The position numbers were made by a program, and so were the translations under genes. Source: a virus. Taken from it: DNA of 34,224 bases. The notes beneath the pieces are model-generated. The model searched no databases. It was not told where the DNA came from and worked only from the letters and a program-made list of their open reading frames with translations. Shown one piece after another: positions 10,817-20,199 of this stretch; position 1 is the first letter of the stretch, and every line of letters starts with the position of its first letter. The stretch covers positions 1 to 34,224 of IMG/VR virus record IMGVR_UViG_3300047481_000142; one strand, written 5' to 3'.

Positions 10817-11327
10817 TTGCCATATCCTGTACTTGTGCTTCAGCTGCGTCTGGCACAGCGGCCATTACGTTACGCTTACTTAACATATCTTCTATTTTAT
10901 TTTTATCTAGATTACGATAACCACGGTTAATGTCATGCATGAGCTTTTTTGGCATGGTTATTCTTACCATCCAAATGTCTTTATGATCAATTTTACCTTT
11001 TTTAGTTCCTGGACGAATATCATCTGGAGTTTTGATCTTACGTACCTTTGCCAGTTTGGATTCAGCGAATTCTACCTTGCATCCGTATTCTAGTAGACGT
11101 TTTCCGCCCACAGGTTCTGGCATGCGTTCTTTAGGCCACATAAATGTGCATTGAACATAGTAACGGCTTTCTTTAGGTCCTTCTACAAGCTCACCGTCAA
11201 ACCAGTTATCATATACATAGATATCTAATTCGTCAATAACACGCTCAAAATCCTTTAATAGGTTTAGGCTGTTATTAGACCCGTAGATGTTTTCTATATT
11301 GCTTATAATGTCTTTTAAATCGGCCAT
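10797..11327 (-). CDS. Conserved-type phage protein of unknown function (176 aa)
   Basis: A 176-residue soluble protein with a central stretch RYYVQCTFMWPKERMPEPVGGKRL split over about residues 55-80, and a basic helical segment KKLMHDINRGYRNLDKNK later on. The C-terminus is Ala/Gln-rich. The ATG at 11327 was chosen over a TTG at 11339 because GGGAG lies six bases before it. First minus-strand gene after the divergent boundary with phoH. Coupled to the next gene by a 20-base overlap. No function recognised. Confidence 0.7.
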   Translation of the reverse strand: MADLKDIISNIENIYGSNNSLNLLKDFERVIDELDIYVYDNWFDGELVEGPKESRYYVQCTFMWPKERMPEPVGGKRLLEYGCKVEFAESKLAKVRKIKTPDDIRPGTKKGKIDHKDIWMVRITMPKKLMHDINRGYRNLDKNKIEDMLSKRNVMAAVPDAAEAQVQDMANAQPAA

Positions 11328-11341
11328 ACTATCTCCCAATG

Positions 11342-11349
11342 TATTTATT
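11342..11349 (-). promoter_or_regulatory. Late promoter-like motif ahead of the 176-aa gene
   Basis: Minus-strand AATAAATA in the divergent gap between the 176-aa gene and phoH, 14 bases before the ATG at 11327. Core ATAAATA as in the other candidates; the short distance to the start makes it weaker. Confidence 0.35.
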
Positions 11350-11393
11350 CCAGCTAGTTTTTTAACTTAACTTATAAAAAAATGTTTTGGTTG

Positions 11394-11400
11394 TTAAATA
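11394..11400 (+). promoter_or_regulatory. Late promoter-like motif ahead of phoH
   Basis: Plus-strand TTAAATA five bases before the first inverted repeat of the phoH leader. The same TTAAATA variant precedes the 181-aa fibre gene. A start point just downstream would make the whole hairpin region part of the transcript. Confidence 0.4.
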
Positions 11401-11405
11401 CTTGT

Positions 11406-11471
11406 GTGTCCGGGTACGGACGCTACGGTAAAAGGTCCGTGCCTAACACGTTAACAAGGAGGCTAACCTTA
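11406..11471 (+). promoter_or_regulatory. Structured 5' leader of phoH with alternative hairpins
   Basis: Three inverted repeats share strands and so cannot all form at once. Hairpin A is 11406-11423 (GTCCG/CGGAC core, loop GGTA, 7 pairs with one wobble). Hairpin B is 11413-11443 (GGTACGGAC with GTCCGTGCC, 9 pairs with one G-U, loop of 13). Hairpin C is 11438-11450 (CGTG/CACG). The Shine-Dalgarno AAGGAGG (11456-11462) sits in a weak AAGG/CCTT fold just before the ATG at 11472. The arrangement looks like a switchable leader; no known riboswitch class was recognised. Confidence 0.5.
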
Positions 11472-12209
11472 ATGAAGAGAAAGAAAGCAGCTCTACTGAG
11501 AGCAACGCAGTCAGGTAATACAACAAATGTAGTTAACATAGCAGATAATTCCAAGTATCAAAAACGTCCTAGAGTTCAAATATATCCCAAGAACTTAAAT
11601 CAAGAAAACTATCTAATCAAACTAAACAACACAGAAAAAATGATAATTTTCGCTATCGGACCAGCCGGTACGGGTAAAACCCTGTTGGCTGTACAATGGG
11701 CTATAGATCAACTCAAGTACGGTGATGCTACTAGAATTGTCATAACTAGACCTGCTGTATCAGTAGATGAGGATCATGGATTCCTACCTGGAGATCTTAA
11801 TCAAAAGATGGAACCATGGACCAAGCCAATAATGGACGTGTTCTCTGAAAACTATAACGCCAGAGAGTTAGAAAATATGATAAGAGAGGGGGTGATTGAA
11901 ACTAGTCCGTTAGCCTATATGAGAGGACGAACATTTAAAAACGCTGTAATAATTGCAGACGAGATGCAAAACGCTACGCCTAGTCAGATGAAAATGCTGC
12001 TGACACGACTAGGACAGGGATCTAAGATGATTGTTACTGGAGATTTGCAACAAGCAGATCGCCCAACTAATAATGGGCTTCTGGAGTTCCTTAAGTTGTA
12101 TAACAACTTTGCAAACCACAGGTATGTAGATCTATGCGAGTTTACTATCAGCGATATTGAAAGACATGAAGCTGTAAAGGAGGTGTTGTCTATTTACGGA
12201 GACTGTTAA
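11472..12209 (+). CDS. phoH: PhoH-like P-loop ATPase
   Basis: A 245-residue PhoH-family protein. Walker A GPAGTGKT at 63-70, Walker B VIIADEMQN, and the family signature MTGDLxQ-like MIVTGDLQQADRP. PhoH proteins are ATPases related to helicase domains, some tied to phosphate starvation and RNA metabolism; they are common in marine phages. The ATG at 11472 has AAGGAGG nine bases upstream; a further-upstream in-frame alternative at 11382 would translate through the hairpin leader and is rejected. It is the only plus-strand gene for about 20 kb, converging with the 78-aa gene with a four-base tail overlap. Confidence 0.93.
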   Translation: MKRKKAALLRATQSGNTTNVVNIADNSKYQKRPRVQIYPKNLNQENYLIKLNNTEKMIIFAIGPAGTGKTLLAVQWAIDQLKYGDATRIVITRPAVSVDEDHGFLPGDLNQKMEPWTKPIMDVFSENYNARELENMIREGVIETSPLAYMRGRTFKNAVIIADEMQNATPSQMKMLLTRLGQGSKMIVTGDLQQADRPTNNGLLEFLKLYNNFANHRYVDLCEFTISDIERHEAVKEVLSIYGDC

Positions 12210-12442
12210 TCAAGATAAGGCTTGAGCTTATCGCCTAATAGTCTTTTGTACATTTCTAACATGTCGTCAAAGGTGGCCTCAGGATTGAGGCCATTTTTGA
12301 CACACTTCTTTTGTTTGAAATCTAGAATCACTTTTGATTCTTGAATGTGTCTATTACTGATTGAGTTTTTGAACTCAGTAATTTCATCCCACTTACCATT
12401 TGGTCTTTTGAAGTAGGTAACCAACATATATCTAGATTTCAT
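12206..12442 (-). CDS. Small unknown protein (78 aa)
   Basis: A 78-residue basic protein with no membrane segment. It starts MKSRYMLVTYFKRPNGKWDE, a beta-hairpin-like opening, then a Lys-rich helix-forming part with one Cys (KKCVKNG). The start overlaps the previous stop as ATGA (12442-12439). It is the last gene of the clamp-loader run and ends tail-to-tail with phoH. In T4-like genomes the small clamp-loader subunit (gp62) lies after gp44, but I see no similarity to gp62 here. Unknown function. Confidence 0.7.
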   Translation of the reverse strand: MKSRYMLVTYFKRPNGKWDEITEFKNSISNRHIQESKVILDFKQKKCVKNGLNPEATFDDMLEMYKRLLGDKLKPYLD

Positions 12443-17099: not shown

Positions 17100-17674
17100 T
17101 AGGTAAACAGTCCAACGTTATTGATAAAGATAATATCAGGGCTATGACGCCATACTTCTAAAATACGACGATCAGTACCTGAACTTAGTGTGATGGTTGT
17201 GAAACCATTTCTCTTATAGGCAAGACTACCTGTTACAGCAAATGACAGAGTTTGACTTGTACCATCTGTGTAAAGTTCCAAAGTAATTTTTCCTAAACCG
17301 GGAGTAACAGTATTGACTGGTAAATTTACAAAATCCATGGCAACTGCACCGCCTGCTGTGCCAAACCTAAAAATTTGATAATTACCGTTTAAATAATCCA
17401 CTTGGCAAGTAGCCACGTTCCAATTACCTGCATTAAAAACCTTTTCTTGATTAGCAACAAATTTAGCATTAGTGATCTCATTTAAATTGAAATCATTGGC
17501 AGCATTTAATCTCGCTGCTCCTGTTGCAGAGTCTTGTAAGACTTCTAGTTCTTCTTTGGCATAGCGAAGACTGGTTTTGATAGTATCAAAATTGTCACGA
17601 AACACCTGTGTGTCGTTGTCCTCTCCTGCTACAGGAAAGTTTTCGTTTATACTTGCGTAGTTAATGTTGCTCAC
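17099..17674 (-). CDS. Probable tail/baseplate-associated adhesin component (191 aa)
   Basis: A 191-residue protein. The N-terminus INENFPVAGEDNDTQVFRDN with FDTIKTSL is a variant of the attachment module of the neighbouring fibres (x-N-D-x-(S/T)-x-x-x-(R/F)-x-x-F-x-x-(V/I)). The rest is beta-rich (QTLSFAVTGSLAYKRNGFTTI). The start is a GTG overlapping the previous stop as GTGA (17674-17671). It closes the adhesin operon in the reading direction. Likely virion-exposed. Confidence 0.7.
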   Translation of the reverse strand: MSNINYASINENFPVAGEDNDTQVFRDNFDTIKTSLRYAKEELEVLQDSATGAARLNAANDFNLNEITNAKFVANQEKVFNAGNWNVATCQVDYLNGNYQIFRFGTAGGAVAMDFVNLPVNTVTPGLGKITLELYTDGTSQTLSFAVTGSLAYKRNGFTTITLSSGTDRRILEVWRHSPDIIFINNVGLFT

Positions 17675-20199
17675 GGTAATTTTTCTCCACGTTGCGGAAA
17701 TGCTAGATATTTATTATCTATAACCCCATTCAGAACGTCAATCAGATAACGATCTGCTGTAAAATCAATCAATTTAAAATCAAAATCACTGGCTTCTATT
17801 CTAGAAATCAGTGCTGGCCCGTAACCGGGATTTGTAAAACATAGCACCAAAGCTTTCACATAGCCTGTTTCTACAAATGCTCTGTCCTGTATACTGCGCA
17901 TCCAAAGTGGTAAAAAGCTTCTATCTCTTTCCCCTGTGGCCTGTATACGTTTCCTCATATTTTTAAAGCTATTTGGAAACAGTCTTTGATGATCGCTGTC
18001 GCTGACCAAAGGTATATCACTGTCTACTTTTATTGAATCATAGCTTAACAATACCTTGCTGTTTATATTGTCCGGTAATTGAACTGTCTGTGATATGCTT
18101 TTCCCATCTTTTTCAAATTCGTCAATCACTTCTACATAGACAGCTTCATAGATGGTTTCTTGCGTAACGGGATCCTTGGCCAATGCATAATTCAAATTTC
18201 CAAATTTGATTTGCTTTCTATAATGATTTCTACTCATAGCCTGGACATATTTGACAGCACTCACACTTTCAATTCCAGCATAGAGCAATATCTTTAATTC
18301 TGTTTGAATTCCAAAGTTTGGATCGCCATATCTATAAATTTCTTGCGGTCTAAAAATAAAACTGTCTGTGATGAAATTGAACCAATCTAATCTTTTACTC
18401 TTAGTTTGAAAAGCCTTAAGGTATAAGTTTGCAAAAGTTTTTGTATTGTCCGCAACTACTTTTAGAGTAAATGTTTTTTCTAATTCACTAAAATTAGCAC
18501 TATCTCTAGCTTTGATAGTAAATGTAAAGATTTTATCAAAACTTGTAGCACCACCATCATAGGTCCCTGTAAATGTTCTGCTGCCTGTAGACGAGTCTGA
18601 TGCTGCATCAGTGCGTTCAAAAAATCTTGTAAGGCCAGGCCCATTATCGTCTTCAAACTGTCGTACCTTACCAAGTATTAGACCTGTTGATAAAAATTCA
18701 AGACCTGGTGGCAACGTACCGCTAATAAAATCGTAAATTACTCTACCGCCGTATCGGAGACTACGAGCTTCAACAAATTTTTGGCTGGGCTGATTTGGAA
18801 TGATAGTACCAAGATCCCCATCGCTGACCCATTCTATGGCGCTTTCTATTTCTCCAATAATATCGATAAAGAAAGTTTTTTCCGTGGTCGATACACCTCT
18901 ACTCCAGTAGATACTGTCCACTGCATTAGGTACTTGATTTAAATTATTCTTAGTACAGATATAGACAAATATAGTTCCGCCAGGACCTGGATAACGAACA
19001 GCCTGTCCTACTTTGTAGCTGACTGTGCTGCTCCAATTACCCAACATTACTGTATAGGTCAACTCATTTAGAGTTGCTGGATAATTTACCGCCTGCATGG
19101 TAAATGTATAACGTTTGGTTACTGCACTTTGATAAGGAACTTTACCTGCTATTTCTCCGGTAATACTGTCTAGAACCATGCCAGGAGGCAGCGTACTGAG
19201 AGATCCATCTGGATTATTCTGTAATAGAATATAGGTAATTGTGCCTGATAGGCTGGGCGGATCATAGACGTCTAGATATACTGTTAGATAATTGTTAGCT
19301 CTCCAGCGTCCAAGATTGCTTTCTGTGATCCAAATTGGTACGCGATCACCAGTGTTGTCTGCACGAAATAAATTAGTATCTACTTGTACAATGCTGTTGT
19401 CAGCCTGTAGGAATTCTTCAGTGACTACCCATATGCGGAATAGTCTACGAACTTCGTTGGCTCCATCGCTGACGCCAACGATAAATGTATAAAATCTACT
19501 GAGACGTCTTGGAGCATTACTAGGTTCGTTGTAGTCATAGGTAACATTATCAAATAGATAACTGTCAAAACCATTACTGCGAGATTCTGCTATGTCTAAT
19601 GACATAATATCAAAAGGCGCACTATCATAACCGCCAGGTCCTGCGATATCGATTGCAAATACAGGATCAGTGAATCCGCTTATACGTCCTGTACGACTGA
19701 GAGATAGACCGGGAGGTAATTCTCCACCATTTGGTACAATATAATATTCTAATGTGTCGCCTGCATTTTCATCTACATCTTCTGCTTCAAGTTGAAAATC
19801 AACTTGTGCGTTGTCAAGCACAAAATAGTTTTCTCCTTGACCTACATTAAGAAAGCCTTCTTTGGTAATCCAAACAGGCTCGTCACTGCCATCAACATCT
19901 ATTTGAAATGTCCTATCCTCAATGTCTTCACCGTCGTCAGCACGTATAACGAAACGACTTTCTGTATAACGTCTTACTTCAGTAGGACTGCCTTTAATAT
20001 AAACAGATGTTTGAGTGCTATCCAAATATGTACTATCAGTTAATACACCTGCATCTAATCTTAGACCTCTTGGCAGTCTTCCTGCAATTAAGCTAAAAGT
20101 AACAGGCCCAACATTAGAAGTGGCCTGTAGAGGTATATTAAGAATAACACGTTCGGTTACTATTCCTAATCTACCTTCAGGAGTTTGCCAAGTTATCAT
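17671..20199 (-). CDS. Large virion protein with Ig-type (He_PIG) repeats and a chitin-binding-like module
   Basis: An 842-residue protein. The motif LPxGLxLxxxxGxIxG recurs about four times: RLPRGLRL near 41-50, LPPGLSLSRTGRISG at 161-175, LPPGMVLDSITGEIAG near 337-352, LPPGLEFLSTGLILG near 496-510. This is the He_PIG/cadherin-like Ig fold found in adhesins. Between the third and fourth (about 388-432) is a W...Y..GQAVRY..YIC...P......YW pattern like CBM5/12 carbohydrate-binding modules. Probably a tail- or baseplate-mounted receptor-binding or bridging protein. AAGGAG precedes the ATG. Function is inference from domains and position. Confidence 0.85.
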   Translation of the reverse strand: MITWQTPEGRLGIVTERVILNIPLQATSNVGPVTFSLIAGRLPRGLRLDAGVLTDSTYLDSTQTSVYIKGSPTEVRRYTESRFVIRADDGEDIEDRTFQIDVDGSDEPVWITKEGFLNVGQGENYFVLDNAQVDFQLEAEDVDENAGDTLEYYIVPNGGELPPGLSLSRTGRISGFTDPVFAIDIAGPGGYDSAPFDIMSLDIAESRSNGFDSYLFDNVTYDYNEPSNAPRRLSRFYTFIVGVSDGANEVRRLFRIWVVTEEFLQADNSIVQVDTNLFRADNTGDRVPIWITESNLGRWRANNYLTVYLDVYDPPSLSGTITYILLQNNPDGSLSTLPPGMVLDSITGEIAGKVPYQSAVTKRYTFTMQAVNYPATLNELTYTVMLGNWSSTVSYKVGQAVRYPGPGGTIFVYICTKNNLNQVPNAVDSIYWSRGVSTTEKTFFIDIIGEIESAIEWVSDGDLGTIIPNQPSQKFVEARSLRYGGRVIYDFISGTLPPGLEFLSTGLILGKVRQFEDDNGPGLTRFFERTDAASDSSTGSRTFTGTYDGGATSFDKIFTFTIKARDSANFSELEKTFTLKVVADNTKTFANLYLKAFQTKSKRLDWFNFITDSFIFRPQEIYRYGDPNFGIQTELKILLYAGIESVSAVKYVQAMSRNHYRKQIKFGNLNYALAKDPVTQETIYEAVYVEVIDEFEKDGKSISQTVQLPDNINSKVLLSYDSIKVDSDIPLVSDSDHQRLFPNSFKNMRKRIQATGERDRSFLPLWMRSIQDRAFVETGYVKALVLCFTNPGYGPALISRIEASDFDFKLIDFTADRYLIDVLNGVIDNKYLAFPQRGEKLP

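Follow-up and report, generated by a model that had tools for sequence, protein, structure and literature searches.

The window analysed here, a 34-kb virus contig of 34,224 nucleotides, carries phoH on the plus strand (11472–12209, 245 aa; Pfam PhoH, E 9e-70; PHROG 170, E 6e-75) amid minus-strand genes for structural proteins, an endolysin, a Clp-type ATPase, and a clamp loader, and the gene arrangement around phoH is much like that of the PA5oct relative Callisto, a Pseudomonas phage. phoH is a very common auxiliary phage gene, present in thousands of phage records. The literature describes PhoH proteins as RNA helicases, of which some at least are sequence-specific and whose role in jumbo phages is unknown (PMC7824862). 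The start codon of phoH is the ATG at 11472, preceded by an intergenic gap of 132 bp, and its Shine-Dalgarno sequence, AAGGAGG, is read at 11456–11462 on the plus strand, 9 nt before the ATG; it is kept in relatives and, as the initial annotation had stated, sits in a weak fold of its own, a mini-fold of 4 bp. The frame of phoH also stays open upstream to an ATG at 11382 (11382–11471), 5′ of the late start point, from which automatic annotation could wrongly lengthen the protein by 30 residues. Beyond the gene, where phoH converges with the next minus-strand gene, the space between the two gene ends contains a hairpin (GATAAG-GCTTGAG-CTTATC, 12214–12232), and neither of its flanks has a clear U run. 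Farther along the window, 17671–20199 encodes a protein of 842 aa that has a putative Ig-type (He_PIG) domain and matches no PHROG, adjoining a baseplate protein like T4 gp9/10.

A T4-type late promoter box, GTTAAATA, occupies 11393–11400 on the plus strand and includes the TTAAATA motif (11394–11400) noted at the outset. In the T4 late promoter, an 8-bp box lies roughly a helical turn 5′ of the start and begins at −13 (PMC2988020). Since the box of the window is taken to begin at −13 likewise, it extends to −6 and the +1 is predicted at 11406, so that the phoH transcript would begin at the first base of hairpin A. The initial annotation had named a transcription start downstream of the hairpins as evidence against its reading, and the predicted start lies instead at their first base. 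The genes upstream of phoH are on the opposite strand, and a read-through transcript carrying the leader is not evident. In 134 distinct phoH leaders the +1 was set from TTAAATA, GTAAATA, or CTAAATA, with G found at the predicted position in 114 of them, among the matches listed. The gap 5′ of phoH (11342–11400) holds divergent late promoter boxes, one TAAATA on the minus strand at 11347–11342 for the leftward genes and the other on the plus strand at 11395–11400 for phoH; the minus-strand box (TATTTAT) is found again in relatives.

Downstream of the box, the leader can be folded in two ways which share one 5′ strand and cannot coexist. Helix A, the 5′ hairpin from the predicted +1 (11406–11423, plus strand), lies exactly where it was first placed, GTGTCCG-GGTA-CGGACGC, with 7 bp between 11406–11412 and 11417–11423 and a loop at 11413–11416, and is seen in transcript-prefix folds of 18–38 nt. 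In the minimum free energy (MFE) fold, the same strand is engaged by an outer helix, P1, of 4 bp (11406–11409 with 11446–11449, plus strand), and by helix B (11412–11421 with 11435–11444, plus strand), both exclusive with A; helix B had been described as a 9-bp hairpin and is real, with its size revised to 10 pairs. Prefix folding of the window transcript gives A at 18–38 nt, B from nt 39, and P1 from nt 44. The hairpins of the window are real and beyond chance, the fold of 11406–11450 having −22.5 kcal/mol versus −12.2 ± 2.5 in dinucleotide shuffles (z −4.09, 0 of 200 shuffles), and the local GC island is likewise present, with a GC content of 0.48 at 11400–11499 against 0.26 at 11300–11399. 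A third hairpin, claimed at 11438–11450 (CGTG-CCTAA-CACG), comprises 4 bp and is absent from every predicted ground state of the window leader. Comparative support goes instead to the 3′ strand of helix B pairing with the ribosome-binding region: imposing A in constrained folds frees this strand, which then forms helix C (11432–11470, plus strand), a putative ribosome-site sequestor in state A that is exclusive with B and pairs 11432–11436 with 11466–11470 (AAGGT with ACCTT) and 11441–11444 with 11460–11463 (GCCT with AGGC).

The loci of relatives were collected with phoH proteins and a single RNA pattern as queries, giving at least 395 loci in the first round. Cut at the predicted +1, these comprise 134 distinct leaders among the matches listed, 79 in a main clade and 55 divergent. 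The main clade keeps GTGTTCGG..ACGGACAC..ACGG..GGTCCGTGCC.TAACAC..AAGGAGGGCTAACC, and its +1 is always G. Outside the main clade the letters vary freely while the topology is constant, namely a 5′ strand with one neighbouring partner and another farther 3′, as in L309 (GTGTTCGG-AGT-CCGAGCAC with TGCTCGGA and GAACAC), L370 (GCAGGGAA-GGAC-TTTCCTGC with GGAAA and CCCTGC), and L385 (GGGAC-GCAT-GTCCT). An exact-core search of IMG/VR found nothing, the core of the window being unique. The degenerate RNA pattern occurred in 97 places, and among the matches listed with enough downstream DNA all precede phoH except those in L114 and L150, which lie in coding DNA and were rejected as chance. Erwinia phage Hena1 has a near match over 24 nt (E 0.3), which was also taken as chance, and a scan of genome contigs recovered only distant phoH genes.

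The exchange of one fold for the other was scored by requiring 4 or more bp that involve the 5′ end within the first 24 nt and, in the full fold, no more than one third of these early pairs remaining, with the 5′ end re-paired downstream. By these criteria A gives way to P1/B in 107 of the 134 distinct leaders among the matches listed, despite wide sequence differences: in 79 of 79 main-clade leaders, where 18.0 are expected from dinucleotide shuffles and 0.000 at equal stability, and in 28 of 55 divergent leaders (6.7 and 0.28 expected, respectively). The criteria were kept unchanged for a held-out set of 51 leaders of at least 45 nt from 21 families, each less than 80% identical to any earlier leader, in which 18 of the 21 new families (3.8 expected) and 45 of the 51 leaders pass. 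Relatedness was allowed for by an arm-swap permutation, in which arms were exchanged between families within windows set by position, complementarity playing no part in their choice, the leaders having been grouped into 20 families by strict-threshold clustering for the first such test. Cognate arms bind better both for helix A and for P1+B, with p=1e-5 in the 20 families and p=2e-5 in the 21 new families in either case, and control windows show no cognate preference (p 0.97–0.99 in the first 20 families, 0.93–0.99 over both sets). Helix C gave p=2e-5 in the first 20 families and no support in the 21 new distant families (p=0.38). Shuffles preserving P1/B rarely yield an A-like hairpin (Fisher 1.3e-13; 11 of 20 families with p<0.05); hence A is not a by-product of B.

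In alignment A1, 96.7% of P1+B cells are paired and four pairs are changed on both sides; the P1/B pair counts exceed 500 of 500 shuffles, the percentage paired in helix C beats the shuffles (6/500), and the counts of helix A alone fail to do so (72/500). Position 4 covaries with both of its partners, C4 being matched with G in A in 9 of 9 cases and with G in P1 in 6 of 9. Compensatory changes between homologous leaders, whose lack the initial annotation would have counted against itself, thus exist in alignment A1 and in the cross-family tests. The tree-aware covariation test that it had suggested, performed on 79 and 84 leaders with our own script modelled on R-scape, found none of the pairs in the alignable clade to be significant (the best pair of A reached p 0.007, or E 0.2 across the pairs proposed), since the helices hardly vary in so conserved a clade. 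Given this near-invariance, the case rests on the comparison between families and not on that within the clade. Judged by these comparisons, both exclusive folds have been kept by selection across very divergent phages, in agreement with the switching layout and the selection for pairing that were first proposed, and the out-of-sample set agrees.

The element appears to be particular to phoH. Late leaders elsewhere on the same contigs are short, their median length being 33 nt, and among the matches listed the exchange criteria are passed by 107 of 120 phoH leaders of at least 45 nt as against 8 of 33 other late leaders of that length, 5 of these 8 being phoH leaders cut at another start codon. 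A covariance model gave one strong match per contig, namely the phoH leader, in 16 contigs of 37–364 kb. A second match of the model in L070 (7267–7329, minus strand) reads as coding sequence and was dismissed as chance.

The cost of opening the region from the Shine-Dalgarno sequence to the start codon was predicted to be 7.1 kcal/mol in state A versus 4.5 in state B in the main clade, with A costlier in 79 of 79 leaders, and 9.1 versus 5.0 kcal/mol in the other leaders, with A costlier in 34 of 34. For the window leader itself the values are 4.2 (A) and 3.4 (B) kcal/mol, a gap of less than 1 kcal/mol, and in the new distant families opening is costlier in state A in only 14 of 21. The cognate Shine-Dalgarno region widens the difference in cost between the two states over swapped-in regions in the first families (3.3 versus 1.9, p 0.001); because the region of a foreign family shrinks the difference, the match appears to be specific in the wider clade of the window. 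No such cognate effect was seen in the new families (1.6 versus 1.9, p 0.52). The models indicate that, in the window's clade, the ribosome site differs in accessibility between the exclusive folds; the Shine-Dalgarno specificity was not replicated in distant families. State A looks to be OFF and state B ON in this wider clade, which we deem likely from the modelled costs, and the same readout for the window sequence itself is uncertain. The predicted state balance, B minus A, has a median of −3.7 in the main clade and −3.2 elsewhere (range −9.9 to +7.0). B is the predicted ground state in most leaders, so that the untriggered leader would be ON, and A+C is the predicted ground state in three groups (L201, L379, and L384).

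Taken together, we consider it rather probable that the leader of the late phoH mRNA would act as a bistable cis-acting element, and we infer that the leader RNA would switch in the cell. The 5′ strand from the predicted start would pair either with its adjoining strand (A) or with the farther 3′ strand (P1, enclosing B). From the order of synthesis, A is expected to form first on the nascent RNA, with displacement or sequestration to follow. Once nucleotides of about 39–44 have emerged, with the ribosome-binding site still unmade, the 3′ strand could displace A and P1/B would form, a state that should keep the Shine-Dalgarno sequence accessible (ON). Should A be held, the 3′ strand would still be free as the Shine-Dalgarno sequence emerges and could pair with it through helix C (OFF). 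As no loop letters are common to the families, a conserved metabolite aptamer is less likely than a trans factor, or else a kinetic cue, that works on the structure, and the phoH product itself, an RNA-helicase-type ATPase, is a candidate feedback factor on its own leader.

In a specific form of this proposal, the PhoH helicase, or some other RNA-binding protein of the phage such as a RegA-like repressor, would bind or remodel the leader and shift it between B (ON) and A+C (OFF). The single copy per contig, always at phoH among the matches listed, the lack of any loop letters conserved from family to family, which a structure-acting helicase would lead one to expect, and the description of PhoH as an RNA helicase with at least some sequence specificity (PMC7824862) are all consistent with such feedback; binding is, however, a candidate property only, and phages with short phoH leaders (L061–L080) also encode PhoH, so that this form is rather unlikely as it stands. 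The broader notion of a phage-wide, structure-only RNA switch without an aptamer, in which the PhoH helicase picks between the two folds of its own leader, is more doubtful still. A contending account is that of a 5′ stabilising leader, whereby both folds would keep the first nucleotide paired against 5′-end-dependent decay and A would be a folding intermediate without any control of translation. 5′ hairpins are a known means of stabilising bacterial mRNAs, and the ompA-type 5′ stem-loop stabilisers, like the phoH leader, have their 5′ end paired at or beside the +1. Among 113 leaders, nt 1 is the first base of A in 94 and of P1/B in 99, the 5′ nucleotide thus being paired in either state at a start site that is itself predicted, and the lack of support for helix C in distant families also suits this account. 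However, one stable hairpin would suffice, and the second exclusive partner kept in some 30 families would be unneeded for protection; the phoH leader departs from the ompA type in precisely these two alternative partners of the 5′ strand, both conserved. In the window's clade, moreover, the Shine-Dalgarno region fits the freed strand better than swapped regions do, and other late mRNAs of the same contigs are mostly without the element. Stabilisation of this kind is judged rather unlikely.

The exclusive folds, the sequestration of the Shine-Dalgarno sequence, and the near-balanced states resemble a translational expression platform, and the conserved linker ACGGT of the main clade might be read as part of a metabolite riboswitch with a ligand-binding aptamer. 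Translational riboswitch platforms indeed share with the phoH leader the three strands, exclusive pairing of sequestor and anti-sequestor, and ordered co-transcriptional folding. Unlike them, the phoH leader has no conserved aptamer and no unpaired letters common to the families, its loops and linkers differing; it measures about 65 nt in total and is associated with only one gene, and the Rfam comparison initially suggested (Rfam 15, the window and 11 related loci) returned no family above the gathering threshold, all of which makes a riboswitch very unlikely. A DNA-level element, such as a promoter palindrome or protein-binding site for which RNA folding would be irrelevant, might be suspected from the position of the leader beside a late promoter and between divergent ones, but helices are kept by G-U pairs (in A, for example, U4-G16 and U5-G15), a pairing that would not be favoured in DNA palindromes, and the pairing pattern is common to families that have no common sequence; this is highly improbable. 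The weak pairing of the Shine-Dalgarno sequence in both states is reminiscent of an RNA thermometer, an idea with even less to commend it, since in ten tested leaders the predicted state balance keeps its sign over the range 5–45 °C and the opening of the Shine-Dalgarno sequence is little changed by temperature, one leader (L376) excepted. Least credible of all is a transcription attenuator of the terminator/antiterminator type: exclusive hairpins do stand at the transcript start, but no U run follows A, B, or C in the window or in the relatives inspected.

The bistable leader favoured here finds its closest likeness among the T4 genes e, soc, 49, and I-TevI (PMC3014915), where, as at phoH, a T4-type late promoter lies just upstream and one of the states has the Shine-Dalgarno sequence masked by a strand 5′ of it, the type of gene control being alike. 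The late transcript of T4 gene e lacks the inhibitory 5′ strand, and it is the choice of promoter that does the switching (PMC3014915). By contrast, the predicted +1 of phoH at 11406 precedes every strand of the element, and the late transcript would hold both exclusive folds. The manA, wcaG, and PhotoRC-II motifs (PMC2864571) are similarly structured leaders from metagenomes and T4-like marine phages; they belong to different genes, phoH is not named in the main text of that paper, and the phoH leader has no Rfam match. A literature search found no paper describing the phoH leader. The phoH leader is accordingly filed under bistable leader control and not as a riboswitch, T4 gene e being the nearest documented phage case.

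That a leader found only at phoH has both of its folds surviving a near-total turnover of sequence suggests that the amount or the timing of PhoH is worth controlling. The leader also offers a concrete RNA for testing PhoH helicase activity, and if PhoH were truly to act on it, phage PhoH would gain a first defined RNA target and control circuit. Being a clear example from nature of two structures selected simultaneously, it may furthermore serve as a benchmark for methods that predict alternative folds.

Several leaders depart from the common arrangement. In the L327 lineage near the main clade, with 57 nt before phoH, and in L039, A is lost and P1 and B are kept with other letters; these leaders might be used as a naturally occurring variant that lacks the switch. 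In the cultured PA5oct-group phage Callisto (L396:2925–3002), ATAAATA is followed by an 8-bp 5′ hairpin at the +1, before phoH, and no clear second partner was found for this hairpin. The distant phoH genes L061–L080 have short leaders with neither A nor B, and, about 30 nt before phoH, their predicted +1 bears a common GCAGGTCG in place of the long structured leader.
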